Assembly: GCF_038637725.1 (NCBI RefSeq)
Contig: NZ_CP152052.1
Coordinates: 2,215,501 to 2,279,500, forward strand
Direction of reading: 5' to 3'
DNA: 64,000 nt
DNA from: Psychrobacillus sp. FSL H8-0483
Lineage (GTDB): Bacteria > Bacillota > Bacilli > Bacillales_A > Planococcaceae
Below the pieces are notes generated by a model. That model was not told the origin of the DNA and searched no databases. It worked only from the letters and a program-made list of their open reading frames with translations. Shown here piece by piece: positions 29,589 through 43,380 of the stretch (within the stretch, counting starts at the first letter, position 1; each line of letters begins with the position of its first letter). Made by a program: the position numbers and the translations under genes.

Positions 29589-29792
29589 ATGTTAATAAAA
29601 AACCATGATGATAAGATAATTTATTGCTACTGTTGTCGCAAAAGGACTTTATTTATACGTAGAGATTTGCATAATAATAGTGGTGTAGAGAGTCATTGTA
29701 GTGAATGTTCATCCGTTTGGTTTGAATGGCAAAATCGAGCAGTTGAGCGAGAAAAAGAAAAATGGCTTGAATATAACGAATTAACATTTTAA
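29589..29792 (+). CDS. Small zinc-ribbon protein
   Basis: The 67-aa protein begins MLIKNHDD; GGAGGG lies about 10 nt upstream of this ATG, and an ATG six codons earlier would overlap that site. It has two cysteine pairs, YCYCCRK and HCSECSS, about 27 residues apart, suggesting a zinc ribbon, and a charged C-terminal helix. The family is not recognised. A perfect hairpin follows at 29804-29842. Confidence 0.7.
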   Translation: MLIKNHDDKIIYCYCCRKRTLFIRRDLHNNSGVESHCSECSSVWFEWQNRAVEREKEKWLEYNELTF

Positions 29793-29803
29793 TTGTAATA
29801 ACA

Positions 29804-29842
29804 TAAAAAAACGCTTGGAGAATATTTCTCCAAGCGTTTTTT
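29804..29842 (+). terminator. Bidirectional terminator
   Basis: A7-CGCTTGGAG and CTCCAAGCG-T7 form a perfect stem with a 7-nt loop, directly past the small zinc-ribbon gene. Confidence 0.85.
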
Positions 29843-29851
29843 TCTTTCCTT

Positions 29852-29882
29852 GTTCAACTAAAGCACTCCGTTAGTTTAAGTG
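29852..29882 (-). repeat. Array repeat a (half unit)
   Basis: ACTAAAGCACTCCGTTAGT, one of the two terminal hairpins of the array repeat. It marks the left end of the repeat array. Confidence 0.6.
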
Positions 29883-30064
29883 CATTATTTCACAAAGATT
29901 TTATTTGTAATTGAAAAGTAGTCTTCCTCTTCAAGAATCTCTCTTCCAACTATTCCGAGCCAACCAAATTATCTTTAGTTCAATATGAATATTTATCAAT
30001 TAAATTAATGAAACCTTTAGAAAAAATGGAACGTAAAGGAAGTAAATCGATGTAGTAAAGGAAG

Positions 30065-31090
30065 ATGAAGTTAATGAATATTGCTAATAAAGTTATAATT
30101 TCACTTTGTATTCTTCTACTAATTATTATTTTATCAGCCTGTAAGCAATCTGAAGAATCTCAAGTGAATATCATTATGGAAAATGAACAGTCCCATGAGG
30201 ATATAATTATGGAGAGTGAACAACAAGATATATCTTATTCTTTTAAAAATCCCAATACTGGACAGGAATTTGAAATAATTCATGCTTATATGCTATATAA
30301 AAACTATTTTGAAACTGTTAAGGACAATCCTGATGAATCACCTAACGAATTATATCAAAAGATAATTATCGAACCTGTATATGATGCATGTTTTAAAGGT
30401 GCGAATTATAAATTTAGTGTATTTGATTGGATACCGGAAGAAAGTGATTTTAATAGTATCAAGAATCAATTTGAATCGATGGATCAAGAACATATGAACA
30501 TGTTAATTGAGGATTCCCTTGATAAATCCTCAGACATACTTTCATCAGATAATATAACAACAGTATGTGTGTTTCCTGAAAATGAAAAATTTCCTTCAGA
30601 CATGTATACATTAGGAACGGGGAAAATTACAGTCTTTCTCAGTGAGCTTAACAATTATTTTATATTGAGTGAGCTTGATAATTATAATAAATCAGGTATT
30701 TCTCATGAATATCATCATAGTGTTTGGACCGAAAAACATGATACGGAAGATTATTTTATGACTGTTTTAGATAATATAATTATGGAGGGGTCTGCCATAA
30801 TGTTTGAAACCTTAGTATACCCCGATACAAATAGTAAAGATTTGGTGCTTGACGAAAGCTTTAACAAAGAATACTGGAGTAAGATTGAAACATTTCTTGA
30901 GAGTAGTGGTACCAATGAGTTTATATTAGGTGGCTCTAGAGGTTTACCCGACTATTATGGCTATAGTGAAGGCTATAAAATGATTAGATCTTACTTAAAC
31001 TTGCATCCCGATGCGACAGTAGAAGAATGGACTTCCAAAAGTCCGAGAGAAATTTTTGAAGAAGGGAATTACATGTCTAATTACGAGTAG
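30065..31090 (+). CDS. DUF2268-like lipoprotein, putative zinc protease
   Basis: The 341-aa protein has an N-terminal lipoprotein signal (hydrophobic segment, then LSAC with Cys26). The C-terminal half contains GISHEYHHSVW, a HExxH-type zinc site, and IIMEGSAIMFE, which could supply the third ligand, as in DUF2268 predicted Zn-dependent proteases. The protein would be anchored outside the membrane. AAAGGAAG lies upstream of the ATG. It is one of the few plus-strand genes in the array region and lies between repeats a and b. Confidence 0.85.
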   Translation: MKLMNIANKVIISLCILLLIIILSACKQSEESQVNIIMENEQSHEDIIMESEQQDISYSFKNPNTGQEFEIIHAYMLYKNYFETVKDNPDESPNELYQKIIIEPVYDACFKGANYKFSVFDWIPEESDFNSIKNQFESMDQEHMNMLIEDSLDKSSDILSSDNITTVCVFPENEKFPSDMYTLGTGKITVFLSELNNYFILSELDNYNKSGISHEYHHSVWTEKHDTEDYFMTVLDNIIMEGSAIMFETLVYPDTNSKDLVLDESFNKEYWSKIETFLESSGTNEFILGGSRGLPDYYGYSEGYKMIRSYLNLHPDATVEEWTSKSPREIFEEGNYMSNYE

Positions 31091-31173
31091 TTTTCTTTAT
31101 GGTCTACAAAACTTAATGTGTCCTTTTCTACATGTTAGAAAAGGATTTTTTTTATATTGCCGATACTCTTCTT

Positions 31174-31246
31174 TCACTAACCTGCTGCGTTAGTTGAACA
31201 AGAGACGCTCTACCCTTATTGAAGTAAAGCACTCGTTATTTGAACA
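31174..31246 (-). repeat. Array repeat b
   Basis: CTAACCTGCTGCGTTAG at one end and GTAAAGCACTCGTTA at the other. The centre is diverged (ACGCTCTACCCTTATTG). Confidence 0.65.
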
Positions 31247-31281
31247 AGGAACGGCTTCTTCACTCGTTCACTTATTGGTTA

Positions 31282-31845
31282 CTAACGAATAAATAATCCA
31301 TTTTCTTCAATAATTTTCTTGCACTTCATAAAACCTATTGACGTCTTAGAATAAATAGGAAAAGATAAATCCCAATTCCCCATTATTACTGTATCAAATG
31401 ATGGAAAGAAAATATCAACAAAATAAAGTTCATTTACTGAAAGATTTGCTAAAAAAGTAAGGGCTTCCTCATCCCCTATTTTATAAATCCCCTTTTTATT
31501 GGAAAATAATTTACGAAAGAGGTTAGCCTCTCCTCGATTTAGGCAACTTAAAACATATTTAAGACTTGGTTTACTCAAGCTTTTATTAATGTGTACATAA
31601 ACTTCATTCTCTGCCAAATGAAAAAGGCTATTAAATGTACTAACAAATTTTGCGCCGTATTTTAGATTATGGTTTCTGCCCAATAATTCGCTTGCCTCTT
31701 CTTCTGTTAAAACTCGATTAAATACATCCATATTACCAATATGATTGTATAACTTACTAGGTTCATCAATAAGATTTGTATTAAATTTTTTAAACTTTGA
31801 AAGCAGTTTATTTATCTCTTCGTCTGTTGCCAAAGTTAGCTTCAT
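31282..31845 (-). CDS. Hypothetical protein (cassette gene)
   Basis: The 187-aa protein has no signal peptide or membrane segment and no recognised domain. Hydrophobic and charged residues alternate as in a normal globular protein (EEEASELLGRNHNLKYGAKF). AGGGG precedes the ATG. It is the only gene between repeats b and c and is followed by repeat b, as expected of a cassette. Confidence 0.75.
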   Translation of the reverse strand: MKLTLATDEEINKLLSKFKKFNTNLIDEPSKLYNHIGNMDVFNRVLTEEEASELLGRNHNLKYGAKFVSTFNSLFHLAENEVYVHINKSLSKPSLKYVLSCLNRGEANLFRKLFSNKKGIYKIGDEEALTFLANLSVNELYFVDIFFPSFDTVIMGNWDLSFPIYSKTSIGFMKCKKIIEENGLFIR

Positions 31846-31894
31846 ATTTTTACCCCTTAGTTATTTTTGTACTAACAATATTTTATCATCTTAT

Positions 31895-31966
31895 CCAACT
31901 ATTCTGCTTCTTTAGTTCAATAAAAGGCTTTACTCCTTCTTGAAGTAAAGCACTCGTTAGTTGAAG
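31895..31966 (-). repeat. Array repeat c
   Basis: Ends TTCTTTAGTTC and CACTCGTTAGTTG, centre the common GCTTTAC...GTAAAGC hairpin. Confidence 0.7.
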
Positions 31967-32045
31967 AAAACTTATTATAGTGTTGATACAGATTCTGTGC
32001 ACATAACAACAACGGAGAAGATACGATAAAACGCACAAAAAAGGA

Positions 32046-32210
32046 CTAATCCCCTCCAGTATTCTCTTTATCTTTATTCGAGAATAGAAAGAATATAGAT
32101 ATGCCGAAGATAGCCCAAATCGTTATTAAAATTATAATGTTTTTAACAAAAAAAGATAAAATAATTGCCATAACTATCATTGCTATTGAAAGTAAGATCT
32201 TCTCTCTCAC
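32046..32210 (-). CDS. Small two-helix membrane protein (cassette gene)
   Basis: From the GTG at 32210, which has AAGGAG about 11 nt upstream, the product is 54 aa with two transmembrane helices (SIAMIVMAIILSFFV and ILITIWAIFGISIFFLF) and a charged tail. The open frame extends 50 codons further upstream, but that part reads through repeat d and is unlikely to be coding. Function unknown. It is the only gene between repeats c and d. Confidence 0.6.
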   Translation of the reverse strand: MREKILLSIAMIVMAIILSFFVKNIIILITIWAIFGISIFFLFSNKDKENTGGD

Positions 32211-32291
32211 TAAAAAACACACTCCTTGTTGAGGATAAAATGTTCTATCATCTCTCTCCCCTTTTTTCTCTCCAAATTTTAACACAATTCT

Positions 32292-32382
32292 TATTGAACT
32301 AAACTGCTTCTTTAGTTGAACAAGAAAAAAGAGCCACCTAAGCAGCCCGAGGATCTTCAACTAAAGCACTCGTTAGTGGAAT
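32292..32382 (-). repeat. Array repeat d
   Basis: Terminal hairpins CTAAACTGCTTCTTTAG and CTAAAGCACTCGTTAG with a different centre (GCCACC...GCAGCCCGAGG). Confidence 0.65.
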
Positions 32383-32464
32383 AAGAAACGATTGCATGAA
32401 AGCTAATTTTCATCTAATTCATCTACTACTTTTTGAATGTCTTCATGAACTTCAACTACTAAAC

Positions 32465-32938
32465 TTAGGTCAAGTCCATGCACATAGTAGAGTAAAACAT
32501 TGGGTCTTCTGTTTTAGATCCTATTTGATATTGTAAAGTCAAACCGCTTGCAAGTGCCGCGTCATACATGTCTTGACCATAAGCCGCAACAATTTCATAA
32601 CGATATTCAGAAACAGAGTAGTGTTTATCCATTCCACTATCTGAAGTATTTACTTCTATACCTTTTTCCCAGTAATTGCCTGTACCATCACTTTTTGGTT
32701 TGCATGTTAATTCATATGCACTCCATCCAGTACGGCCTGGTATTTTTCCTCCTGAATATAGATATGTTTTTAGTTCTGCTAATGTAGAAGGATGTTGATT
32801 ACTATCATGAGCTACGATATCTTTTATTGTGTAAGGACCTGCTGGCAATGCAGCACTTGCTGTTATTGGAAAATAGACAAAGATAGAAGTGCTAAACCAT
32901 AAATATGTCAGAAATAATACAAAAAAGATTTTTTTCAA
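32465..32938 (-). CDS. Secreted hypothetical protein
   Basis: The 157-aa protein has a clear signal peptide (MKKIFFVLFLTYLWFSTSIF, probable cleavage after ASA). The mature part resembles small secreted or S-layer-associated proteins: LPAGPYTIKDIVAHDSNQHP, two cysteines far apart, a mixed beta composition and no catalytic motif. GGAGG precedes the ATG. It lies 33 bp downstream of the SLH protein gene on the same strand, so the two probably form an operon and act at the cell surface. Confidence 0.8.
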   Translation of the reverse strand: MKKIFFVLFLTYLWFSTSIFVYFPITASAALPAGPYTIKDIVAHDSNQHPSTLAELKTYLYSGGKIPGRTGWSAYELTCKPKSDGTGNYWEKGIEVNTSDSGMDKHYSVSEYRYEIVAAYGQDMYDAALASGLTLQYQIGSKTEDPMFYSTMCMDLT

Positions 32939-32971
32939 TATTTCACCTCCTTTACATTAAAATTAAATTCA

Positions 32972-34033
32972 TTAATTTGAATTAACAGCTATATAAAGAC
33001 GGCTTTCAAAATAATTAAAGTACATTACGAATTTTCTTGAATTGCTTGTTTTATCGAAAGTCATTACTTTTCCTGTTGTATAAGCTTCATTTATAAGATT
33101 AATAGTATCTAATGGAGATAATTGAAGTACATTGCCTGATAGACCATTAAATTTATGATTTAAATTTGCTGTGTCACTTAAATTCATAGGGTATGATATA
33201 TTGTAATTTGTATTCATTTCAACTAATTTAGCATTGTATTGCTTCTTCAGCTGCTCAGTCAATACTGATGCATCATTTTGTCCTTCTGGTAATGTTACTT
33301 TTCCATAGAATGCTTTTCTGTATGGTAAAATTAACCGACCTAATTGGTTATTGCCAAGAGCTAAAATTTCAGCATCTGTCATAGTTTTCAAATCATCTAA
33401 TGTCACTTCTGTTGTTTTGAAATATTGAGCTCTGTACATAAAAGCAGCATAATGAGCACGAGTTAATGATTGATTTTCTCTGAATGTGCGATCTTCAAAC
33501 CCTGATGTTATATAAGTTACAGACAAAGCTGTTACATATTTATCATATTTGCTAGATACATCTTTCATTTCATGAGAGCCTCTAGTATCTAGATTGTAAG
33601 CAACTGTAAGAATTTTTGCCATCTCTCCACGTGTTAATGATTTATTAGGATTAATATTTCCTTTATTGTCAGCTTCAAGTAATCCAGCTTCCATTAACTT
33701 TTTGATATCAGTATAATAAAGATTTGATGTTGATAAGTCTTTTGGTTTGTTAAATGAAGTTGTTTTAGGTAAATCTTTAACAGAACGATTGATTAATGCA
33801 GCAGCTTGTTTTCTGTTAACTGTTTGATTTGGTTTAAATGTGCCGTCTTCGTACCCACTAATAACTCCTTCTTGAGCCATTGTGTGAATTACATCATAGT
33901 TCGCATTACTTTTAGAAACATCTTTAAATGTTTTGTTGTAAGTTGCAGCTTCAGCTTCCATTGTGCCTCCTAAAACAGATGTAGATACAAAAGCAAATGC
34001 TGCTGCAGATAATAATATTTTTTTAAATTTCAT
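32972..34033 (-). CDS. S-layer homology (SLH) domain protein
   Basis: The 353-aa protein has a signal peptide (KKILLSAAAFAFVSTSVLGG, cleavage after AEA) and three SLH repeats in the first 200 residues: FKDVSKSNANYDVIHTMAQE with GYEDGTFKPNQTVNRKQAAA, then YYTDIKKLMEAGLL with NPNKSLTRGEMAKIL, then SGFEDRTFRENQSLTRAHYA. SLH domains anchor proteins to pyruvylated wall polymers. The C-terminal 150 residues are an unassigned domain. AAGGGG lies before the ATG. It is larger than the other genes in the array region, lies between repeats d and e, and is followed by a secreted-protein gene. Confidence 0.92.
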   Translation of the reverse strand: MKFKKILLSAAAFAFVSTSVLGGTMEAEAATYNKTFKDVSKSNANYDVIHTMAQEGVISGYEDGTFKPNQTVNRKQAAALINRSVKDLPKTTSFNKPKDLSTSNLYYTDIKKLMEAGLLEADNKGNINPNKSLTRGEMAKILTVAYNLDTRGSHEMKDVSSKYDKYVTALSVTYITSGFEDRTFRENQSLTRAHYAAFMYRAQYFKTTEVTLDDLKTMTDAEILALGNNQLGRLILPYRKAFYGKVTLPEGQNDASVLTEQLKKQYNAKLVEMNTNYNISYPMNLSDTANLNHKFNGLSGNVLQLSPLDTINLINEAYTTGKVMTFDKTSNSRKFVMYFNYFESRLYIAVNSN

Positions 34034-34296
34034 GTCTAAAAACCCCTTTTTTATGTTTTATTTTGCTATGTTTATTGTAGCGATTGTATTATATTGGTAC
34101 TTCCTTCATAATATATGATATTCACACAATCATTTTTAGATAATATTTCTATCTTATCCTTATTATTAAACAATTTATCAAAAGATATTATTGCAGGATC
34201 GTACCGTATAATATACATGGTTAACGATATCTTCTCTTTATATCTTATTATTCTTGTACTTCTATTTTTATTTCCAATAGATAGTCTCACAAATTC

Positions 34297-34676
34297 TTAT
34301 TTATGAACAGGTTCGCATTCAAAGGCAATATAGCGATTCAAGAATTCTTCTTCTAACTTATTAAATGGGTTATAAGATTCAACATTTGCAGATGCTGTTT
34401 TATCTGAAAATATTCTAAACCCTTTTCTCGTTCTTTAGTTGAATCAAAGATATAAACCGCTAGCATCTTCCCATCCAGTTCATAATCAGAAGGTCTGACT
34501 CCATTAAGTTTCATTCCAAAAATGTTTTTATCTCTAACTTTACTTTCTTTAAGTGACAATCCCTGTTCCTCAAATGAAGATAGTACTTCTTCCAATGAAA
34601 TTGCATTGGAATCTGTTGCTTGGCAAACAGTCAGCAAGAAAACCAATGATAGAAATATTAAAGCTACTTTATTCAA
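34297..34676 (-). pseudogene. Lipoprotein-like cassette gene with one-base frameshift
   Basis: The frame begins MNKVALIFLSLVFLLTVCQA, a lipoprotein signal with Cys18, and continues with SLEEVLSSFEEQGLSLKESK and a repeat-like domain common in Bacillus lipoproteins. It leaves frame after EREKG. Adding one A in the A4 run near 34424 would read EKGFRIFSDKTASANVESYN and on to a stop at 34297, giving about 126 aa. This is either a recent pseudogene or a sequencing error. GGGGG precedes the ATG. Confidence 0.7.
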
Positions 34677-34742
34677 TAAATCGCCCCCTTAAATTGATAA
34701 ACGCAATAAAATGTTCAAATCAGTGCTTATTAATAACTTGCC

Positions 34743-34878
34743 TTCTTCAACTAACCTGCACCGTTAGTTTAAGTGTAACATTTCACAATGGATTTCTGAG
34801 ATCTACTTGATGTTTTGGATAAAAAAATAGACCATCGAAAATGATGGTCTTGTTTAACTAAAGCACCCGTTAGCTTAA
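34743..34878 (-). repeat. Array repeat e (long form)
   Basis: CTAACCTGCACCGTTAG, a 90-bp centre containing AGACCATC...GATGGTCT, and CTAAAGCACCCGTTAG. The whole unit is nearly identical to repeat o at 41691-41822, 7 kb away. Confidence 0.75.
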
Positions 34879-34888
34879 GTACATTAGT

Positions 34889-35176
34889 TCACAAAGTCTC
34901 TTTATAAGTAACAAGAAAAGGTGCCAACAAAGAACCAATTATAAAAATAAAAATAGCTGTGCCAAGTGTCACAAGACCATTGCTAAAAGGAGAAAGAAAA
35001 TAACCGAAGGTGAGCATTGGAAGAATAGTTAATGAAACAAAAATTAACCTGCTTGGTGTTGTTATCTTATGTGTTGTATCGCATTCGTTACAATTAATAG
35101 GTTTATAATTTAGTCAGAACGATTCATAGATTTTACTCCAACTAAAATATGTATTGCATTTCTCGCATTTTTGCAA
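34889..35176 (-). pseudogene. Cys-x-x-Cys small membrane protein with in-frame TGA
   Basis: From a TTG at 35176 (TGGAGG upstream) the frame reads LQKCEKCNTYFSWSKIYESF, then TGA, then LNYKPINCNECDTTHKITTP and two transmembrane helices to a stop at 34889. CEKC and CNEC are 20 residues apart, as in the cxxc_20_cxxc family. Related proteins have Trp where the TGA stands, so a TGG to TGA change probably broke it. It is the only gene between repeats e and f. Confidence 0.65.
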
Positions 35177-35221
35177 AGCTAATAACCTCCATTATAATTT
35201 CTGAATTTTCTAAGGCGTTGA

Positions 35222-35297
35222 TTTATTATCCTGCCGCGTTAGTCCAATAAGAAAAAAGCTTTACCCCTTCTTGAAGTAAAGCACTCGTTAGTGGAAG
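35222..35297 (-). repeat. Array repeat f
   Basis: Ends CTGCCGCGTTAG and CACTCGTTAG, centre the GCTTTAC...GTAAAGC hairpin. Confidence 0.7.
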
Positions 35298-35315
35298 AAC
35301 GAAATTCATAATTTA

Positions 35316-35762
35316 TTAATTCCTATATAGTTCAACTAATTGTTTACCATCAGTAGCACCTATGATTGTATTAAGTGGAATTAGATTGATTACAACGAAT
35401 AGATACGATACAAAAATAAAACTATCCAAATAGTTTCGGAAAACTAGGAATTCATAACCAGTTAATAAGTGAAGTACTAATGAAGATAGAAAATTAAAGA
35501 GAACTCCACCTAAGTAAAAGAAGACTCTTTGGTTTTTACTTAATATCTCATGGTTTTCAGGGACAACTCTCCCACCAAAGAAATAGGCTTTCTTAATGAA
35601 AAAATTGTTTTTCCTCCAAAGTATATCGCCGTTGCCGATAGAAAACTCACTTACTTTTGCACCAAATATTTTCAAAAAAAATGCATGTCCAGATTCGTGA
35701 ATTAGTGCAATAATAGGACAAATAAATAAAGTAATAATTACGAAGTTTATTAAAAAATCCAT
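35316..35762 (-). CDS. M50-like membrane metalloprotease homologue (cassette gene)
   Basis: The 148-aa protein has an N-terminal membrane helix carrying ALIHESGHAFFLKIFG, the HExxH zinc site of site-2 (M50) proteases. Two further hydrophobic segments follow, and a C-terminal NLIPLNTIIGATDGKQL corresponds to the NPDG region that gives the third ligand Asp. It is shorter than SpoIVFB or RseP but keeps the key parts. AGGGG precedes the ATG. It is the only gene between repeats f and g. Confidence 0.85.
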   Translation of the reverse strand: MDFLINFVIITLFICPIIALIHESGHAFFLKIFGAKVSEFSIGNGDILWRKNNFFIKKAYFFGGRVVPENHEILSKNQRVFFYLGGVLFNFLSSLVLHLLTGYEFLVFRNYLDSFIFVSYLFVVINLIPLNTIIGATDGKQLVELYRN

Positions 35763-35911
35763 CTTTTCATCCCCTTTCTACTATCTACGGAAAAGCAAAA
35801 ATAAGGTTTCAAATACTTCTGAATATTAAACGAAAAAGACTTGTAGTACAATAAAACTCCATTTTATACCGTTAAACCTACTAATTTCTTCAAGATTCCA
35901 TGTACAAAGTC

Positions 35912-36000
35912 ATTGAACTAAACTGCTCCGTTAGTTCAATTAGAAAAAAAGTTGCCTAAGCAACCCTCGATTTTCAGCTAAAGTAAGATGTAAGTTTAAG
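35912..36000 (-). repeat. Array repeat g
   Basis: CTAAACTGCTCCGTTAG, then a centre GTTGCCTAAGCAACCC and a diverged second end (CTAAAGTAAGATGTAAG). Confidence 0.6.
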
Positions 36001-36013
36001 AAGAAAGCGTTTT

Positions 36014-36319
36014 TTACTTTATTTCATTACGGAATTTTAAGATGATTTGGATTGTAAGAATGATGCTAAATAATGTAATTAGTAGAAGTAAAATACGATC
36101 ATCCTTATACAAATTACCATTACTAACACCCAACCAAAGCGTACAACTAAATGAGTTTAACCCGAATAGAACTCCCCAAATAACTTCCTTTATTATTTTA
36201 TAGATTCTATTACCAGTTAAATACCTAATATAAAAGTAAATGATCAAACCTAATCCTAATACTATAAGCAATGACTTCACGAAGGATGAGGTTAAAGAAA
36301 TCGGCTCCTCCCAGGGCAA
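36014..36319 (-). CDS. Small membrane protein (cassette gene)
   Basis: Up to 101 aa with three hydrophobic segments (SLLIVLGLGLIIYFYI, VIWGVLFGLNSF, ILLLLITLFSIILTIQII). The true start is unclear. A very strong GGGAGGAG site lies inside the reading frame at about 36308, and the nearest in-frame candidates after it are an ATT 3 nt on and a GTG about 22 nt on; the outermost start (TTG at 36319) has no site. The 3' end of the tiny gene at 36292-36444 overlaps it, so translation may be coupled. Confidence 0.6.
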   Translation of the reverse strand: MPWEEPISLTSSFVKSLLIVLGLGLIIYFYIRYLTGNRIYKIIKEVIWGVLFGLNSFSCTLWLGVSNGNLYKDDRILLLLITLFSIILTIQIILKFRNEIK

Positions 36320-36444
36320 TCTATGTAGATTAAGTTAAAGAGATTGACCATATTGAATATAAAGACAAAGAGAAGAACACAAAAAAATAGAACCCATTCA
36401 CCTACATAAATTAATGGATATATAACCTTTCTCAACCTTTTCAC
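36292..36444 (-). CDS. Tiny membrane protein overlapping the next gene
   Basis: From a GTG at 36444 the frame encodes 50 aa (KRLRKVIYPLIYVGEWVLFF and a second hydrophobic stretch, then a short polar tail), consistent with one long or two short membrane helices. Its stop overlaps the start region of the gene at 36014-36319, and the GGGAGGAG of that gene lies within its last codons. The weak ribosome binding site makes the start uncertain. Both lie in the same cassette interval (repeats g to h). Confidence 0.45.
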   Translation of the reverse strand: MKRLRKVIYPLIYVGEWVLFFCVLLFVFIFNMVNLFNLIYIDCPGRSRFL

Positions 36445-36540
36445 CTACCCATTTCTTGATGAAGTACCATTTGCTTTTACTATATTACTCATAAAATATT
36501 TATAGGTCCCAAATTAGAAAACAATAATCATCTAATCACT

Positions 36541-36618
36541 GTTCAACTAACCTGATGCGTTAGTTCAATAAGAAAAAAGGCTTTACTCCTTCTTGAAGTA
36601 AAGCACTCGTTAGTTGAA
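36541..36618 (-). repeat. Array repeat h
   Basis: A textbook copy: CTAACCTGATGCGTTAG, spacer AATAAGAAAAAA, GCTTTAC...GTAAAGC hairpin and CACTCGTTAGTTGAA. Confidence 0.75.
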
Positions 36619-36621
36619 GAA

Positions 36622-37197
36622 CTATCGGTACCCACCATTGGATTCTGGCAGTGATTTATATTCATCCTTGCTTTTAATTATATTAAAGACATAATTTCTC
36701 AACTCAATTAGTTGTTTTGTATCGTTCGTTGGTTCGCAGTATTCCCCTGAAATTAAATGTGTTAACGTTTCACCGTTGATAATAATTTCCCACCTATCTA
36801 TTTCGTATGGTCTTCGAATACAAACCGTCCCTTTTACAGGTTCAGGTGTAAATTCCTTCGTTTCGACTATATTAATTTCTTGCATTTTCTCATAAATATC
36901 TTTCATTTCTTCTTCTGTTAAGATTAACTCTGTGGTTGCAGTACCATCTGCTATTAAATCCTTAGTCACCGTTTCTTCGAAAGTATTAATTTCATTCTTT
37001 TTTTGAACACCGAACTGAATAGAAAAATCAAAATCACTAGGCATATCTTTTGGCATATTTTGAGCAGTTGAGTTGGTTACATTTTTAGAAATCTCGTTGT
37101 CCAGTTCCTCCTCTTTATCACTTTGTTGACAGCCTAATAACCATATCGAAAGAAACATTAAAGACAAAATTAAGCTAAGTTTTTTCAATAGCACCAC
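36622..37197 (-). CDS. Lipoprotein, unknown function (cassette gene)
   Basis: The 191-aa protein has a lipoprotein signal peptide ending in LLGCQQS (Cys23). The mature part has an acidic linker, then a beta-rich domain (IQFGVQKKNEINTFEETV, WEIIINGETLTHLISGEYCE). No family is recognised, although small lipoproteins with this layout are common in Bacillus. AGGAG lies before the start. It sits alone between repeats h and i. Confidence 0.8.
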   Translation of the reverse strand: MVLLKKLSLILSLMFLSIWLLGCQQSDKEEELDNEISKNVTNSTAQNMPKDMPSDFDFSIQFGVQKKNEINTFEETVTKDLIADGTATTELILTEEEMKDIYEKMQEINIVETKEFTPEPVKGTVCIRRPYEIDRWEIIINGETLTHLISGEYCEPTNDTKQLIELRNYVFNIIKSKDEYKSLPESNGGYR

Positions 37198-37256
37198 TCC
37201 TTTTATAATTAGACAGAATTTCGTAGTTTTTGATTCAATAAATCTTGTGGTAATTT

Positions 37257-37340
37257 GTTAAACTAACCTGCTGCGTTAGTTCAATAAGAAAAAGAGTTAC
37301 CTCTGGCAACCCCATGATTTTTTACTAAAGCACCCGTTAG
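37257..37340 (-). repeat. Array repeat i, interrupted by a mini-IS110
   Basis: CTAACCTGCTGCGTTAG and CACCCGTTAG with a GTTACC...GGCAAC-type centre. The copy breaks off after GTTAG, where the 61-bp insert at 37341-37401 begins; TTTAAG, the expected continuation, resumes at 37402. Confidence 0.7.
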
Positions 37341-37401
37341 CCATCCATGATGCCCTGCTTCACCACAGAATATGCAAGAAAATTTCGTTCTTCCATGGTA
37401 G
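37341..37401. mobile_element. Miniature (internally deleted) IS110-family element
   Basis: The left end CCATCCATGA...GCTTCACCACAGA matches the left end of the IS110 element at 38844, and the right end CATGGTAG matches its right end. Only about 61 bp remain, so it is a non-coding deletion derivative. It is inserted after GTTAG in the repeat, exactly as the full element is. Confidence 0.6.
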
Positions 37402-37419
37402 TTTAAGAGAAACCGACAG

Positions 37420-37650
37420 TTATCCAAAATAATTATGAAACCACCAAACAACAAGAAACATACCCCCTATTCCCCAAGCCGTGGCACTCACTATCCACCA
37501 AATTATGGATTTAGATTTTGTTGAACTTTCCTCGCCTTCCTTATTTGCTTTTATAAAAGCGAGCTTACTTTCCATACTTTTTTTCATAGAAACGAGAACA
37601 ACAAATCCGATTAGCATGAAACCAGTAGTTATCCAGAGTAATATGTCCAC
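37420..37650 (-). CDS. Small membrane protein (cassette gene)
   Basis: A 76-aa protein with two transmembrane helices (LLWITTGFMLIGFVVLVSM and IIWWIVSATAWGIGGMFLVV) joined by a charged loop rich in Lys, Glu and Ser. AAAAGGGGG precedes the ATG. No family is recognised. It lies alone between repeats i and j. Confidence 0.75.
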   Translation of the reverse strand: MDILLWITTGFMLIGFVVLVSMKKSMESKLAFIKANKEGEESSTKSKSIIWWIVSATAWGIGGMFLVVWWFHNYFG

Positions 37651-37700
37651 CTTCTATACCCCCTTTTTTTATGAATTACTTTCCTTTCAAATCTTCTTTA

Positions 37701-37788
37701 TTCAACTAACCTGCTGCGTTAGTTTAATAAGAATAAGAGTTACCTATGGCAACTCTATGATCTTTTACTAAAGCACACCGTTAGTGAA
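37701..37788 (-). repeat. Array repeat j
   Basis: CTAACCTGCTGCGTTAG and CTAAAGCACACCGTTAG with the GTTACC...GGCAAC centre it shares with repeat i. Confidence 0.75.
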
Positions 37789-38017
37789 AAGCATTAAAAG
37801 TATTGATGAAAACAAAAAGGACAAAAGCAGATACAAGGAAGGATATTATTGCATTTGTCTTTCGTTTTTCTTTTAGTTCAGAAATTCCTGTAACCAATAC
37901 CATTGCACCAAAAGAAAACAACATATAAGGTATTACCTGGTCTTTAACAGTTATGAATAAGTATACTGCTAAACTGAATGTAATCACCGCAAAAATAACC
38001 TTCATCACATTTAACAA
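37781..38017 (-). CDS. Small membrane protein, DUF3953-like (cassette gene)
   Basis: A 78-aa protein with three hydrophobic segments (VIFAVITFSLAVYLFIT, YMLFSFGAMVLVTGI, IISFLVSAFVLFVFI) and a short charged KEKRK loop, a pattern seen in DUF3953 proteins of bacilli. GGGGAG lies about 13 nt before the outer TTG/ATG pair; an inner ATG four codons on is also possible. Its last codons overlap repeat j. Confidence 0.72.
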   Translation of the reverse strand: MLNVMKVIFAVITFSLAVYLFITVKDQVIPYMLFSFGAMVLVTGISELKEKRKTNAIISFLVSAFVLFVFINTFNAFH

Positions 38018-38082
38018 ATAATCCCGCTCCCCAATTTAAAAATCGATTCATATCCCGTTAATTGATTTTATAAAATCACCTT

Positions 38083-38110
38083 ATTTAACTAAAGCACTCG
38101 TTAGCACAAT
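38083..38110 (-). repeat. Array repeat k (half unit)
   Basis: CTAAAGCACTCGTTAG only, followed by CACAATAAG; the central hairpin and the other end are missing. Confidence 0.6.
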
Positions 38111-38130
38111 AAGAAAAGCCTTCGAAATCA

Positions 38131-38328
38131 CTAATTACTCTCTTTACTTTTCTTATAAAAGTTTGATACCACCCCTAATATAATTCCGATAACAATTAAG
38201 GGTATAGAAAATGTTGCATATGGTTCAGGAGTATCCGCAATTCCAAATGGATTAAAAGCAAATCCAGCTGCCATTATCCATACTCCTAAATAAAATAAGA
38301 TTTTTCCAGTCTTGGTATGCCTTTTCAA
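38131..38328 (-). CDS. Small membrane protein (cassette gene)
   Basis: A 65-aa protein with two hydrophobic helices (ILFYLGVWIMAAGFAFNPFG and FSIPLIVIGIILGVVSNFY) and basic ends. A GGGGGG run lies just upstream of the ATG. Unknown function; it is alone between repeats k and l. Confidence 0.75.
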   Translation of the reverse strand: MKRHTKTGKILFYLGVWIMAAGFAFNPFGIADTPEPYATFSIPLIVIGIILGVVSNFYKKSKESN

Positions 38329-38370
38329 TAAAAAACACCCCCCTTACTTTTCTCATTCCTATATAACCAT

Positions 38371-38452
38371 CTTCAACTAACCTGCCCCGTTAGCTTAATA
38401 AGGAAAAAGTCTTTACTCCCTTCTTGAAGTAAAGCACCACGTTAGTTTAAGT
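38371..38452 (-). repeat. Array repeat l
   Basis: CTAACCTGCCCCGTTAG, CTTTACTC...GAAGTAAAG hairpin and CACCACGTTAG; followed by TTTAAGTGCATTTTTTCAC as in repeats a and o. Confidence 0.75.
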
Positions 38453-38498
38453 GCATTTTTTCACAATTTTGTACGCTCTAATTTCCAGTAAACCAAAT

Positions 38499-38689
38499 CT
38501 AAAAATCATCAATAAATGCATTCAGTATAAGAAGTAAAATCCCTAAAACAACACAAATATTTACAATGACAACACCTATTTTGTTATCATTTTTATCGTC
38601 TTTATCTCCTCTACTCTGTTGTTTTATCTTTCTATATACACCTTGAACTTTTTTTGCTTTTGGATTTTATCTTGTTTGTTTTGGCTCAT
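38499..38689 (-). pseudogene. Small membrane protein with frameshift (cassette gene)
   Basis: From an ATG at 38689 (GGAGGAGAAAGG upstream) the frame reads MSQNKQDKIQKQKK and then stops early. Adding one A to the A7 run near 38646 lets it continue as VQGVYRKIKQQSRGDKDDKN, followed by a membrane helix (VVIVNICVVLGILLLILNAF) and a stop at 38499. So it is a roughly 63-aa one-helix protein broken by one base, or a sequencing error in a homopolymer. Confidence 0.6.
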
Positions 38690-38770
38690 TCCTTTCTCCT
38701 CCTAAACTATAACGATGCTAATATCATCTGTTTAATAACTACTTCTACGTTCTTACTAAAGAAACCTCTT

Positions 38771-38843
38771 GTTCAACTAAACTGCTGCTTTAGTTCAATA
38801 AGAAAAAAGGCTTCACTCCTTCTTGAAGTAAAGCACCCGTTAG
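38771..38843 (-). repeat. Array repeat m, interrupted by IS110
   Basis: CTAAACTGCTGCTTTAG, the GCTTCAC...GTAAAGC centre, and CACCCGTTAG, where the IS110 element begins. The displaced end TTGAATAAG is found at 40449. Confidence 0.75.
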
Positions 38844-39101
38844 CCATCCATGAAGCGCAAAATCAGCGCTTCACCACAGAGAATGAAAATGGTGAAAAAC
38901 CGTCCATACTGATTCTACGGCTGGGAGAGGAAGGTCGATGAACTATGGTGCCTTAGAGCCCATCCGTTAGTCTGACTCCAACGACCACGGTGCACCACTG
39001 ACTGTCGCTCCCTTACAGGAAGCACACATGGTAGATTAATCCTATTCTGATTGTTGCACCAGCCTCCAATAATATTAAGAGCCGTAGAAAGGATGTTTTC
39101 A
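38844..39101 (+). ncRNA. Candidate IS110 bridge RNA region
   Basis: This non-coding left end lies just upstream of the transposase gene and contains several potential stems. It includes CATCCGTTAG at 38961-38970, which resembles the target CACCCGTTAG in the array repeats. In IS110-group elements a bridge RNA made from this region pairs with the target; that this is the target-binding loop is inference. Confidence 0.45.
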
Positions 39102-40325
39102 ATGGATATAGTCATTGAAAGAGCATGTGGTATGGATGTTCATAAGGACAATATAACTGCATGTATTATCACACCAGAAGGAAAGGAGATTCAAACGTTT
39201 TCAACTAAAACTGTATTTTTAATACAGTTGGTGGACTGGATTAAACAGCTGAATTGTACGCATGTCGCCATGGAGAGCACGAGTGTTTACTGGAAACCTA
39301 TTGTGAATTTATTAGAAGCTGAAGATATTGAGTTTCTAGTTGTGAATGCCCAGCATATGAAGGCAGTGCCTGGACGTAAAACAGATGTGAAGGATGCAGA
39401 ATGGATTGCCAAACTACTCCGCCATGGTCTTCTCAAAGCTAGTTATATTCCTGACCGTGATCAACGGGAACTACGTGAACTTGTTCGCTATCGTCGGAGT
39501 ATTATTGAAGAACGTGCCAGACAGCATAATCGGATTCAAAAGGTATTGGAAGGTGCGAACATTAAGTTAGGTTCTGTTGTTTCAGATGTGTTGGGCGTTT
39601 CAGCAAGGGATATGCTTCATGCGATCGCCGAAGGCGAAGATGATCCTGAAAAACTTGCAAATTTTGCTCGACGAACAATGAAAAAGAAGAAAGATGAACT
39701 GGAACTCGCCCTTAAAGGTTATATCAATTCACATCAACGTCTTATGTTGAAAACCATTTTAAAGCATATTGATTTTTTGACGGAGCAAATCGAGATGCTC
39801 GATCAAGAAGTGGCGGAAAGAGTAAGCGCCAATAAAGAAGATGTTGAACGACTAGATTCTATTCCTGGCATTGCTACAAGAATGGCGGAGCAAATTTTAT
39901 CTGAAATCGGAACGGATATTAAGAATCAGTTTCCAAGTGCAGCTCATATGTGCTCTTGGGCAGGATTAGTTCCTGGACATAATGAAAGTGCGGGAAAAAG
40001 GAAATCAACTAAAACCAAAAAAGGAAACAAATATTTGAGATCAGCATTAACAGAAGCAGCTCATTCTGTAAGAGGTTCCAAAAACTATCTCGGTGCTTTG
40101 TATCGTCGTACAGCAGCAAGAAAAGGTAAGAAACGAGCAGGAATTGTCGTCGCTCATGCCATGTTACGCATCTCCTATTATCTCTTAACTCGAAAAGAAA
40201 TGTACGTAGACTTAGGCGAAGACTACTTTGATAAAAAGAGACAACAGTCAATTGTTCGACATTCCTTACGAAGACTTGAGAGTTTAGGATACACAGTTAC
40301 GTTACAAGAACCTGAAGCGTCTTAA
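39102..40325 (+). CDS. IS110-family transposase
   Basis: The 407-aa protein (ATG at 39102, AAAGGA upstream) has an N-terminal RuvC-like DEDD domain (GMDVHKDNITACIITPEG, VAMESTSVYWKP, KTDVKDAEWIAKLL) and a C-terminal transposase_20 domain (LDSIPGIATRMAEQILSEIG, CSWAGLVPGHNESAGKRK, GNKYLRSALTEAA). The DEDD recombinase uses an RNA guide and makes no target duplication in most members. The length is normal and the gene appears intact. It lies on the plus strand within repeat m. Confidence 0.95.
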   Translation: MDIVIERACGMDVHKDNITACIITPEGKEIQTFSTKTVFLIQLVDWIKQLNCTHVAMESTSVYWKPIVNLLEAEDIEFLVVNAQHMKAVPGRKTDVKDAEWIAKLLRHGLLKASYIPDRDQRELRELVRYRRSIIEERARQHNRIQKVLEGANIKLGSVVSDVLGVSARDMLHAIAEGEDDPEKLANFARRTMKKKKDELELALKGYINSHQRLMLKTILKHIDFLTEQIEMLDQEVAERVSANKEDVERLDSIPGIATRMAEQILSEIGTDIKNQFPSAAHMCSWAGLVPGHNESAGKRKSTKTKKGNKYLRSALTEAAHSVRGSKNYLGALYRRTAARKGKKRAGIVVAHAMLRISYYLLTRKEMYVDLGEDYFDKKRQQSIVRHSLRRLESLGYTVTLQEPEAS

Positions 40326-40572
40326 TCCAGTCCACCTACCTACAATAGTTCAATGAATTACGCGCTCTCCTTTTTTTTTAACGAATGAGCTGCGTCTTAT
40401 TAAGTATTGCCTTTTTCCCTAAATTACAGAAGTTTATTTTCATGGTAGTTGAATAAGCACCTTCTCTTTTATTACACATTATGGTCGTACTGTATCTTCT
40501 AACTAAAATCTCAATCTTCCCTCCTGCATGATATAATTTTATAGGTCCCATACATATAGAAAGGAAGATTAG

Positions 40573-41112
40573 ATGTCCAAAATATCAAATGTATATATAC
40601 GATCGCTTATCCTCTCAGATGCTGTCGAATTACTAAATTTAGAAAAGAGAAATCGAGCTTTTTTTGAAAACTATTCCATTACTCATCCAGAAAATTACTG
40701 GATTTTAGAAACTCAAAAAGAGTTAATCGAAAAGTGGGAACAAAATACAAAAAAAGATATAGAATATCGATTCGGAATTTTTAAAACAGATGGTGATATT
40801 CTTATAGGTACCATCGGCTTATTTCAAGTATTCCGTGGACCTCGTGAAAGTGCGCTTTTGGGCTATTCCTTAGACCAAGAACATAATGGCAAAGGTTATA
40901 CTACCGAAGCCACCAATTTAATTGTTAATTATGCTTTCGAAATTCTAAACTTACATCGAATTGAAGCTGGAGTAATGCCAGATAACATAGGTTCCGTTCG
41001 AGTATTAGAAAAAGCTGGTTTCCATAAAGAAGGAATAGCTAAGAAAAACGTTAAAATCAATGGGTCTTGGGAAGATCACCAGATGTTAGCTATAATAAAT
41101 CCGAATGACTAA
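40573..41112 (+). CDS. GNAT acetyltransferase, RimJ/RimL type
   Basis: The 179-aa protein has the acetyl-CoA-binding core LGYSLDQEHNGKGYTTEATN (motif A: Gln/Gly-x-x-Gly-x-Gly/Ala) and NIGSVRVLEKAGFHKEG, typical of RimJ/RimL-like N-acetyltransferases. The substrate may be a protein N-terminus, a small amine or an antibiotic; it cannot be told. AGAAAGGAAG lies before the ATG. It is on the plus strand between repeats m and n. Confidence 0.9.
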   Translation: MSKISNVYIRSLILSDAVELLNLEKRNRAFFENYSITHPENYWILETQKELIEKWEQNTKKDIEYRFGIFKTDGDILIGTIGLFQVFRGPRESALLGYSLDQEHNGKGYTTEATNLIVNYAFEILNLHRIEAGVMPDNIGSVRVLEKAGFHKEGIAKKNVKINGSWEDHQMLAIINPND

Positions 41113-41230
41113 TCTTGTAATTCATACTAATTATTAGACAATCTCTATCTCCACTCATTTAAATTATGAGTGGATTTCTTATTATTATGACGTATTTTGT
41201 GTCAAATGCGACATAAAAACTCCCATTCAT

Positions 41231-41308
41231 CTTCAACTAACCTGCTTCGTTAGTTTAATAAGAAAAAAGGCTTTACTCCTTCTTGAAGTAAAGCACCCGT
41301 TAGTTGAA
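41231..41308 (-). repeat. Array repeat n
   Basis: CTAACCTGCTTCGTTAG, the GCTTTAC...GTAAAGC centre, CACCCGTTAGTTGAA: an intact copy of the IS110 target. Confidence 0.8.
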
Positions 41309-41317
41309 CAAATATAC

Positions 41318-41644
41318 TTATTTATTTCTTATCCAAAATATATATCGATTTGTGATTTTTTTATTGTTATTTAAAACTAATATTATTGGAATCAGACCAA
41401 TAGAAAGAAATATTGTAAAAAAAAGTAATGTTGGTATATTTAATGCGTTTTCGATTATTCCCATACAAATCATTATCGTCCCTAATAATAAATATGGAAA
41501 AACCAAACCTCTTTGAAAGGATTGGAATTTTTCTTCACCTAAAAAAGTCCTTATATTCCCCGCTATGAAATAGTCACTTTTCTTAAGATGACTTATCCCT
41601 TGAACTATCATAAAAATCCCCAAAGCTATACTACCGAACGACAA
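41318..41644 (-). CDS. Small membrane protein (cassette gene)
   Basis: I place the start at a TTG (41644) because AAGGGGGGG lies 7 nt upstream. The open frame reaches 17 codons further, but without a site and close to repeat o. The 108-aa product has four hydrophobic segments (SIALGIFMIVQGI, YLLLGTIMICMGI, LLFFTIFLSIGLIPIILVL and a C-terminal aromatic part). Unknown function, alone between repeats n and o. Confidence 0.7.
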   Translation of the reverse strand: MSFGSIALGIFMIVQGISHLKKSDYFIAGNIRTFLGEEKFQSFQRGLVFPYLLLGTIMICMGIIENALNIPTLLFFTIFLSIGLIPIILVLNNNKKITNRYIFWIRNK

Positions 41645-41690
41645 TTTAAAGCCCCCCCTTATTGGCAATATATAACAATCCTCTGTTTTC

Positions 41691-41822
41691 TTCAACTAAA
41701 CTGCCCCGTTAGTTTAAGTGTAACATTTCACAATGGATTTCTGAGGTCCACTAGATGTTTTAGATAAAAAATAGACCATCGTAAAATGATGGTCTTGTTT
41801 AACTAAGCACCCGTTAGTTGAA
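41691..41822 (-). repeat. Array repeat o (long form)
   Basis: CTAAACTGCCCCGTTAG, the long centre with AGACCATC...GATGGTCT and CTAAGCACCCGTTAG. Its whole length parallels repeat e at 34743. Confidence 0.75.
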
Positions 41823-41845
41823 GAAGCCTTATTTTCCAAACCTCA

Positions 41846-41968
41846 CTAACGTTTTTCTGGTATTTCAATCTGGTTAATATCAAAGTTATTGATTTGGAGA
41901 GTTATCTCACCCTCTCGATTATTAGTTTCTTCTCCGATCCAACAGGTCATCGTGACCGTTCCGCTAGG
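41846..41968 (-). pseudogene. C-terminal gene fragment in the array
   Basis: The minus-strand frame reads PSGTVTMTCWIGEETNNREG and ends at a stop at 41846, right before repeat o. An in-frame stop lies just upstream and there is no start. It looks like the leftover 3' end of a cassette gene. The family is not recognised. Confidence 0.35.
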
Positions 41969-42102
41969 AGCCTACCTCCCCCCTTTAGGTGTTATGATAA
42001 ATACTATTATTGTTATTAATCAAACAGTTTTAATAGATATAAATGCCGTTACTTTAAGGTTGACAAACTCATAATATAATATAAAGAAAGGAGTTGAGAA
42101 TT

Positions 42103-42507
42103 ATGCCAGATAATAGTGCAAATGTAATACACGTTAACGAAACTAATCCTATTGCAGATACTACAGTAAATCCATGTAATGGTGAAGTTATTAACTTCAC
42201 CGGTTCCGTTCATGTTCAGGGAACTGGCGTATTTGCACCTAGTGGAAGGTTTAATGGTAACATTCATAATAATATATCTATTACAGGTAAAGGTGATATG
42301 GGTAATATATATAGGGGTAGTGAAACTTATAACAATTTCCTTAATCTAGTCCCAGGAGCCATAACAAATGAAACTCATACAGTCAGAATGATTTCCAAAG
42401 GTAGTGCTCCAAATTTTACTATGACTCAGATTTTTCATATCACTATTAATCCAGATGGAACCGTTACGGTCGTTGTACAACAAGGTCAATCGAAGTGCGT
42501 TGGTTAA
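42103..42507 (+). CDS. Hypothetical beta-rich protein
   Basis: A 134-aa protein from the ATG at 42103, which has AAAGGAG 9 nt upstream; an ATG three codons earlier overlaps that site. It is rich in Asn, Gly and Thr with alternating hydrophobics (NGEVINFTGSVHVQGTG, GNIHNNISITGKGDMGN), suggesting a beta-sandwich or barrel. There is no signal peptide. It has two cysteines. Plus strand, between repeats o and p, with a strong terminator behind it. Confidence 0.75.
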   Translation: MPDNSANVIHVNETNPIADTTVNPCNGEVINFTGSVHVQGTGVFAPSGRFNGNIHNNISITGKGDMGNIYRGSETYNNFLNLVPGAITNETHTVRMISKGSAPNFTMTQIFHITINPDGTVTVVVQQGQSKCVG

Positions 42508-42519
42508 TAGTTCAATTGA

Positions 42520-42556
42520 AACAAAGCATTCATCCTATTGGAATGAATGCTTTGTT
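42520..42556 (+). terminator. Terminator of the gene at 42103-42507
   Basis: AACAAAGCATTCAT and ATGAATGCTTTGTT form a 14-bp perfect stem, starting 12 bp past the stop codon. Confidence 0.85.
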
Positions 42557-42701
42557 CTTACATAAGTAGAAGGACGAATAACAAAAACTTATCTTTCTTT
42601 ATGCTTTCTTGAGCCTTACATTCTAATTAGTAAAAATAAGAAAACTATTTGTTGTTTGATGAAATAATTTACGTTCTATTTAATGTAATTTACACTATTG
42701 T

Positions 42702-42769
42702 TCTTCAAACTAACCTGCCTCTTTAGTTCAATAAAAGGCTTTACTCCTTCTTGAAGTAAAGCACCCGTT
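42702..42769 (-). repeat. Array repeat p (right-most copy)
   Basis: CTAACCTGCCTCTTTAG, the GCTTTAC...GTAAAGC centre and CACCCGTT, after which the sequence changes into the element-end sequence at 42773. Confidence 0.7.
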
Positions 42770-42772
42770 TTA

Positions 42773-42877
42773 TAAAATCAGACTTATTTAACGTATTCGA
42801 ACTCGGTTTACCTAGGTTCTATTAGCAAGATAATTTTTTACAGTTAGGAGGTCCTGGTTCGAACCCCGTCGGCATCA
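42773..42877 (+). repeat. Element end with a different tRNA 3'-half-like sequence
   Basis: AAATCAGACTTATTTAAC followed by a diverged TCGAA-CTCGGTTTA-CC stretch matches the sequence that precedes the partial tRNA copies at 47603 and 54567. Here it leads into GGTTCGAACCCCGTCGGCATCA-like sequence, which looks like a T-arm and acceptor strand of some other tRNA. It appears to be the far end of a related element that used another tRNA. Confidence 0.45.
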
Positions 42878-42941
42878 TTGGGTACCGAACCCACGAGACC
42901 CTTAAGGAACGAGGGGTTCTTTTTTTGTTTTTTGTAGATGA

Positions 42942-43202
42942 CTAAACCCCTTCTTCGTATTTAACAAACTCAACTTTCTTTTCACTCAAGTTTGGTTTTG
43001 CTTGGAATCCTGCTTTTGTCCAAGAATAAGCCTGTGTGTGTTGTGACGCACTATCCCACCATGCCATATATTTAGATGCTGATACTGGAAGATTAAACCC
43101 AAGTACTTCTTCTACTTCTAAAAAAGTCATAACAAAACGTCTTGAATCCTTTGATTTTAAATATTTATGTAGTGGTTCGTATTTACTACCTCTTGTACTC
43201 AT
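42942..43202 (-). CDS. Small DUF7662-like protein
   Basis: An 86-aa protein with STRGSKYEPLHKYLKSKDSR at its N-terminus and WWDSASQHTQAYSWTKAGFQ in the middle, a layout seen in small proteins found with phages and restriction genes (DUF7662-like, from memory). I choose the ATG at 43202 because AGAGG lies 9 nt upstream; an outer ATG three codons earlier overlaps it. Function unknown; the 'SKY...L..YL' motif suggests DNA binding or a nuclease partner, but that is a guess. Confidence 0.65.
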   Translation of the reverse strand: MSTRGSKYEPLHKYLKSKDSRRFVMTFLEVEEVLGFNLPVSASKYMAWWDSASQHTQAYSWTKAGFQAKPNLSEKKVEFVKYEEGV

Positions 43203-43380
43203 CTTTTTCATCCTCTTAATTTTCTATTTCTTTGTTATTAATATCATATTTTTTACACAATTACCTTAATAATAGTAAGTAAGTATTTACCTACAGAATT
43301 AAATCTGCCGCCTTAACTGCTTAAATAAATTAGGTAGTATGTTCCTTCTACTGATTATTGAAGAAGACGTATTTTATTTA

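Follow-up and report, generated by a model that had tools for sequence, protein, structure and literature searches.

Integrons are the closest described counterparts of the system considered here: long arrays of one-gene cassettes in a single orientation, with orphan products, are punctuated by sites with terminal GTTAG/CTAAC boxes and served by a tyrosine recombinase; they are shared across genera and are also found as clusters of attC sites lacking integron integrases (CALINs). Double-stranded palindromic cores of the Xer type bound the mosaic gene modules of Acinetobacter plasmids, known as pdif modules, whose dif-like sites depend on the XerC/XerD of the host. Simple Xer-type recombinases (XerD, XerC-like, XerA) act at a single dif site, and insertion sequences (IS) of the IS1111-attC type sit in attC. 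The region studied here, positions 29858-42771 of a 64,000-nt stretch of Psychrobacillus sp. FSL H8-0483 (contig NZ_CP152052.1; the whole stretch is called the window below), is an array of genes and repeat units, each unit being made of two near-palindromic cores, L (CTAAMCTGCNNCKTTAG) and R (CTAAAGCACYCGTTAG). Comparison with similar arrays makes it likely that the region is one array of many in a cassette system that works like an integron and is built on another recombinase and other sites.

All the integron traits listed above recur in these arrays, repeat-only genomes and sharing across genera included. The differences are that the recombinase is XerD/XerA-like, that this enzyme is encoded inside a unit, between its two cores, and flanked by arrays left and right in the loci viewed, that no attI was recognised besides the R cores, that the arms do not covary, that two classes of sites exchange and that each unit brings a terminator. 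The arrays resemble pdif modules in their palindromic Xer-type cores, their mosaic arrangement and their apparently double-stranded sites; unlike pdif modules, they have a dedicated recombinase that moves as a module of its own, they are long and chromosomal, and their two spacer classes alternate with segments that hold a gene or a terminator. Host Xer proteins may have a role as well. The array enzyme can be aligned with simple Xer-type proteins along most of its length, with no large insertion, and differs from them in being tied to multi-site gene arrays and not to a single dif site. An IS110-family element at an R core recalls the IS1111-attC elements, although the element is here a passenger and not the engine. 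A search of the literature, mainly at the level of abstracts, found no recognised description of these arrays, and a prior description is possible.

In the site scan, the array holds 14 L-R units and two R-only sites, all on the + strand, in agreement with the sixteen repeats counted in a preliminary description of this DNA; a further weak R (score 11) lies outside the array at 28359. Weight matrices over 65 loci give a consensus of about cTTnTTnAA-CTAAM-CTGCNNC-KTTAG-TTnAAtaaGa for L and about cTTnTTnaA-CTAAA-GCACYC-GTTAG-TTnAAnaaGa for R, palindromic arms flanking a spacer being the general form of tyrosine-recombinase core sites. At a threshold of 14, the matrices find 646 L and 533 R in these loci and 0 and 0 in the reversed sequences. 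Each of the loci (L numbers below) was picked because it contains repeats, a related cassette gene or the recombinase; the counts therefore do not give a genome-wide density. By spacer length, 610 L are of 17 nt and 29 of 16 nt, and 547 R are of 16 nt and 80 of 17 nt. The rarer lengths were considered as L/R hybrids, a reading without support: the next site is distant for 70 of 79 17-nt R cores, as expected before a gene. Orientation is uniform per locus for 864 of 866 hidden Markov model hits, the median distance being 43 nt from L to R and 582 nt from R to the next L. The sites mostly alternate (466 LR and 469 RL neighbour pairs); the 139 LL and 127 RR pairs presumably reflect degenerate, lost or missed partners. 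In the window's genome (4.14 Mb), the R motif occurs 62 times with at most one mismatch (control, 0), and a repeat model is matched in 57 of 151 genomes of the family (E 0.001) and in 26 of 398 genomes of the class (E 0.0001). These genome counts are lower bounds, as the model was built mostly from units of the window's genome (26 of 31) and the filters were strict.

The two kinds of segments between the cores have different contents. In 380 of 429 R-to-L segments, the longest open reading frame (ORF, at least 40 amino acids (aa); 11 of 440 segments have none) runs in the direction opposite to that of the units, and its median start there is 70 nt from L and its median stop 31 nt from R. The place between L and R is taken by a portable terminator or, at one or a few positions per carrier genome, by the gene of an XerD/XerA-like recombinase. 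Of 398 units, 330 have a terminator-like hairpin on the gene strand and 20 on the opposite one, against 30 of 440 and 24 of 440 control pieces. The array is thus a chain of gene, terminator, gene and terminator, with a recombination core at each joint. No shared promoter in a fixed place was seen: TATAAT-like words peak slightly in the L arm (35 of 440), with no other strong peak, and promoter-like sites in the window are no more frequent than in shuffles (63 vs 56.7).

Gene segments, terminator segments and the recombinase segment are found combined in many ways, and the breakpoints cluster at the cores. The 440 gene segments give 40 full-length homologue pairs at 85% identity or more, 31 between genomes and nine within one; of the 27 pairs in which a neighbour could be read, 26 have none in common. 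One-gene cassettes therefore stand in differing order among relatives, as comparison of integrons would lead one to expect, and not in the constant order that the preliminary description had named as evidence against cassettes. At the junctions (alignments cover the first 26 of the 40 pairs, in part), homology mostly runs from the R core to the spacer of the next L, or on through the terminator to the next R. Of 264 homologous blocks at 90% identity or more, 228 were usable, with 144 starts and 143 ends at most 12 nt from a core, where chance would give about 9% or less. L-to-R blocks number 53, R-to-L blocks 32, R-to-R blocks nine and L-to-L blocks three. Blocks and gene pairs are not independent, as families recur. 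Window block 31225-31968, whose two ends fall in R cores, recurs at 98.8% identity beside the recombinase of locus L012. The right-hand terminator goes with the gene in seven of 19 readable pairs (identity at least 0.9; 6% in random pairs) and the left-hand one in two of 20 (random, 1.3%), which suggests that genes and terminators move partly jointly and partly separately. Exchange also extends beyond the genus: the gene at 31282-31845 has relatives in Lysinibacillus sp. ZYM-1 (92%), Bacillus sp. FJAT-29790 (90%), Peribacillus simplex (74%) and P. frigoritolerans (54%), with L/R-like sites in all four loci, fewer and weaker on the Lysinibacillus contig.

The preliminary description had proposed a search for a recombinase linked to such arrays, and a 279-aa tyrosine recombinase family was found. 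In the window's genome, its intact gene lies at 1853420-1854256, between L and R cores of an array 0.39 Mb away; this stretch, L012, has the most units (22) of all stretches fetched, and broken copies lie in four other array stretches of the genome (L009, L010, L015, L019). The protein has the domains of a simple Xer-type recombinase, core-binding and catalytic (PF02899 and PF00589), with R..K..HxxR..H..Y; R138, K162, K165, H228, R231 and Y263 are invariant in 29 sequences and H254 nearly so, residues which we take to be those of the tyrosine-recombinase active site. XerA_Arch is the only model that it passes (222.4 bits, cut-off 220), and the best PDB matches of the family profile are XerD 1a0p, XerC-like 4a8e and XerA 5hxy. 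A phage origin was rejected, with just four of 50,697 phage records at E 1e-40 and at most 35.4% identity. The broken tyrosine recombinase at the border of the array (28574-29197), which the preliminary description had associated with the system, belongs to another family: it is 27% identical to the array recombinase, its best matches in other array loci reach at most about 30%, and it was discarded as the engine.

For the position of the array recombinase, we chose 22 intact copies (17 genomes) among the listed matches and viewed their flanks. By eye, an L-like core lies directly upstream in all 22 (about six are degenerate, e.g. L083, L084, L086, L089/L090), and an R-like core lies past the terminator of the gene in 20 (absent from L084 and L099; degenerate or cut in L083, L091 and L093). 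Conservation starts after L and stops at R, and the flanks beyond mostly differ, few being common (L081/L099, L089/L090). The gene is on the strand of the units in all 25 loci with a match. Cores are present on both of its sides, and cassettes also begin at R cores other than the adjoining one. Among the matches listed, 26 of 151 family genomes have a copy or piece at 74% identity or more; all 26 are among the 44 genomes with at least three repeat matches, and none is among the 107 with fewer (Fisher 9e-18). As a control, no enrichment in repeats is seen among genomes that have just 58-68% relatives (4 of 18 vs 14 of 107, p 0.29). Relatives at 62-67% (nine loci, L072-L080) have no L/R core within about 220 nt, and their inclusion in the same system is unsupported. 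Genomes G041, G078, G120 and G128 have 18-27 repeat matches (27 being the most scored) and no close recombinase among the matches listed. The next protein group is at most 39% identical to the recombinase among the matches listed, and 41% in another search.

Further copies lie outside the chromosomes of the family. The Sporosarcina psychrophila plasmid pSP10-266k (L121, NZ_CP146247.1) has a 94% identical recombinase between L and R and is a possible vehicle between species; this copy is about 3 kb from mercury-resistance genes. At the level of the class, copies at 74-79% identity occur in four further families: L122, L123 and L144 have R-like and partly L-like cores, L124-L126 not clearly. Near recombinases at 48-63% identity in other families of the class (L131, L137-L139, L142), CTAACGGG(G)CAG-like sites resembling a reversed L were seen by eye; sites of the CTAACGGGGCAG type are those of the distant recombinases. 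These enzymes and the CTAACGGG(G)CAG-like sites perhaps belong to a wider system.

A mechanism can be proposed for the cassette system. The recombinase would bind the palindromic arms, of about 13 bp, of each core, and strands would be exchanged in the spacers, near CTAAMCTGC/NNC in L and near CTAAAGCACY/CG in R. If like exchanges with like (L with L, R with R), one gene and one terminator would be excised together as a circle and could be reinserted at an L or R core, also at the R core that adjoins the recombinase. The recombinase gene would itself occupy a terminator position, and genes could move with or without their terminators. The terminator would insulate each gene, which probably carries its own promoter. 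Arrays would be kept as a store in genomes without recombinase, and the window array, which has no recombinase of the array family, would be served in trans.

The array of the window follows the general layout with some exceptions. The longest ORF (at least 40 aa) is on the - strand in 10 of its 14 R-to-L segments (just 42 aa in one of them), absent from one and on the + strand in three (the ORFs at 30065-31090 and 42094-42507, and the IS110 transposase, next to a GNAT gene). As the preliminary description stated, and as in the other loci, genes are thus mostly on one strand; its statement of one gene per interval is true as a tendency and not as a rule, since 32377-34750 contains several. The terminator that it placed in the central hairpin on the gene strand was recovered in the window, as in most units overall: on the - strand, each of the 14 units has a terminator-like site, and eight additional ones lie elsewhere in 29800-42800 or on the + strand. 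The two long-loop units (34741-34883, 41686-41827) have their own conserved sequence and terminator, and 46 units have loops of 88-89 nt. Rfam gave no match at gathering score within 28000-45000. The features are as follows.

29858..29874, +, R-only core at the left array edge (site scan, score 45)
30065..31090, +, gene of a lipoprotein-like DUF2268 predicted Zn protease, a strand exception
31177..31239, +, L-R unit with a terminator-like site on the - strand
31225..31968, block of a gene and its right-hand unit, 98.8% identical to the copy adjoining the intact recombinase in L012
31282..31845, -, 187-aa orphan cassette gene with relatives at 54-92% in Lysinibacillus, Peribacillus and Bacillus records
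31899..31960, +, L-R unit
32046..32285, -, 79-aa ORF, cassette gene
32299..32376, +, L-R unit
32465..32938, -, 157-aa ORF without Pfam match
32972..34033, -, SLH-domain protein, 353 aa
34353..34676, -, 107-aa ORF
34751..34873, +, L-R unit of the long (90-nt) loop type
35226..35291, +, L-R unit
35316..35762, -, Peptidase_M50-like membrane protein, cassette gene
35918..35994, +, L-R unit with a degenerate R core (score 10)
36014..36319, -, 101-aa cassette ORF
36547..36613, +, L-R unit
36622..37197, -, 191-aa cassette ORF, lipoprotein-like by eye, without Pfam match
37263..37340, +, L-R unit with an IS110-end-like CCATCCATG after R
37420..37650, -, 76-aa cassette ORF
37706..37784, +, L-R unit with a 17-nt R
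37781..38017, -, 78-aa cassette ORF
38089..38104, +, R-only core (site scan)
38131..38328, -, 65-aa cassette ORF, in a segment 96.7% identical to one in L115
38377..38445, +, L-R unit with a 17-nt R
38777..38843, +, L-R unit with an IS110 element starting directly after its R core
38844..40445, +, IS110-family element, passenger at an R core (transposase ORF 39051-40325; right end by eye)
40573..41112, +, GNAT acetyltransferase gene
41237..41303, +, L-R unit
41318..41695, -, 125-aa cassette ORF
41696..41817, +, L-R unit of the long-loop type
42094..42507, +, 137-aa ORF
42710..42771, +, final L-R unit, the right arm of R degenerate

IS110-family elements start directly after an R core (GTTAG, then CCATCCATG or a near form) in all three copies found by tblastn in array loci (38844-40445; L020, 6320-8005; L091, array-oriented, near 1180-2655), two of which have the right-end motif. 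The same IS110-like end follows 49 of 1266 cores (40 R and nine L). Elsewhere in the window, two tRNA-Val (gac) genes (3491-3563 and 24485-24557) are each followed by a tyrosine-recombinase match (about 3742-4284 and 24727-25269), perhaps marking integrative elements at tRNA-Val.

The orientation of the sites was tallied in two of six genomes, the terminus being assumed opposite dnaA. In genome G147 (4.33 Mb, dnaA at base 22), 18 of 18 reverse L lie before 2.02 Mb and 50 of 50 forward L of the main contig after 2.24 Mb. The same rule fits 55 of the 62 R motifs in the window's genome (dnaA also at base 22), 28 of 28 in the first half and 27 of 34 in the second; G129 has at least one exception (3443574, +). 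Cassette genes are thus mostly co-directional with replication, which selection on gene direction may explain as well as mechanism does.

Several alternative scenarios may be considered. One is that the arrays are true relatives of integrons, with units that are attC sites recombined as folded single strands (outer and inner arms paired, spacer bulged) by an atypical IntI. The L and R of a unit can indeed pair with a bulged spacer, the drawn hairpin pairs 79% of cells compared with 28-48% when slid, and the single orientation of the arrays and the IS110 element at R, by analogy with IS1111-attC elements in attC, point the same way. The single-strand folding called for by the preliminary description is uneven among the 11 of 14 window units folded: five reach z -2.63 to -3.90 (the last at 36539-36623), yet six reach just -0.25 to -1.72. 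Moreover, as indirect evidence, the outer arms of 399 units do not covary (complementary 0.303 and 0.288 at two variable positions, 0.311 being expected at both), alignment pair counts for an attC-like hairpin are no higher than in shuffles, and the inner-arm signals (z +4.5 and -7.1) are consistent with common descent within loop families. L and R are therefore read as two separate double-stranded sites, and exchange is found at L as well as R. The enzyme departs from IntI too: it scores 90.6 bits with the integron-integrase model TIGR02249 (cut-off 265) and 56.7 with PRK15417 (cut-off 435), and IntI4 is matched over positions 201-267 of the family profile only. Integron integrases have a specific insertion in the catalytic domain that is not fully conserved and is essential for integron function, according to the relevant part of PMC8138268. 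A long insertion is absent from the printed alignments of the array recombinase to XerD and XerA, the proteins (and not IntI) that the residue comparison covers. An integron relative in this strict sense appears unlikely, and the identification of the repeats as attC is not supported: their arms do not covary, breakpoints fall in both cores and the recombinase is of another type. What survives from the preliminary description is the cassette-like character of the arrays: most intervals contain a single small gene, these genes are shuffled among arrays, genomes and genera, and a recombinase is closely linked to the repeats. In enzyme and hairpin, the arrays depart from integrons as tested; on this reading they belong with the gene-cassette systems, possibly as a separate class.

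Alternatively, a mobile element made of L, the recombinase gene and R could have left non-autonomous L-loop-R derivatives, similar to miniature inverted-repeat transposable elements (MITEs), with the genes as bystanders. This would account for the recombinase between L and R, for the short units that share its ends and for the 53 L-to-R blocks. Nevertheless, gene segments are shared too, as shown by the 32 R-to-L and nine R-to-R blocks, the same gene stands beside different neighbours in 26 of 27 cases, and the units are about one gene apart and in one orientation, with genes mostly on one strand. Scattered copies with neighbouring genes that are not co-mobile, as MITE-type derivatives would give, disagree with this orientation, this spacing and these homology blocks, and the scenario seems slightly less probable still than an integron relative. 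Finally, ordinary homologous recombination between repeats is improbable. It would fit with the conservation of the sites, which suffices to seed exchange, with the many broken recombinase copies and with the over one third of block ends that are at no core. However, several pairs break in the same few nucleotides of the spacer with odd arm bases staying with the gene, the identity common at a site is about 40 bp, and the repeats are strongly associated with one recombinase clade.

Some observations nevertheless weigh against the cassette system favored here. The support is wholly comparative, and the movement of cassettes is what the comparisons of sequences suggest. That L would exchange only with L and R only with R goes beyond the 16-nt L and 17-nt R variants, which neither prove nor exclude hybrids. 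No core was found at 84 of the 228 block starts and 85 of the ends, 38 blocks being core-free at both, and homology continues beyond a core in some pairs (L083/L108 and, on the left, L103/L107 and the L088 pair). The window's genome has just one intact copy of the recombinase and several broken ones. Among the matches listed, 18 of the 44 genomes with at least three repeat matches have no close recombinase, the four genomes named above among them, so that arrays may be remains or use another enzyme. Lastly, the loci were picked for having sites, and the cut-off of three repeats was chosen after the table, which was read by hand, had been seen.

On balance, we lean, with some reserve, towards an independent, non-IntI cassette system of the Bacillota in which a Xer-derived recombinase would lie inside the unit, two orthogonal classes of double-stranded sites would alternate, and genes and portable terminators would be shuffled as separate blocks. 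Integrons are reported to be very rare in Firmicutes, with one complete integron and a few CALINs in the corresponding part of PMC9024848. If this system is active, the Bacillota would have their own counterpart of integrons, missed by searches for IntI and attC. It would be a simpler, double-stranded version in which a terminator is supplied with each gene, and would point to more than one origin of cassette capture from Xer-type enzymes. The recombinases at 48-63% identity with CTAACGGG(G)CAG-like sites would make the system ancient and class-wide. The arrays mark a pool of small membrane proteins, lipoprotein-like proteins and orphans that is shared across genera.

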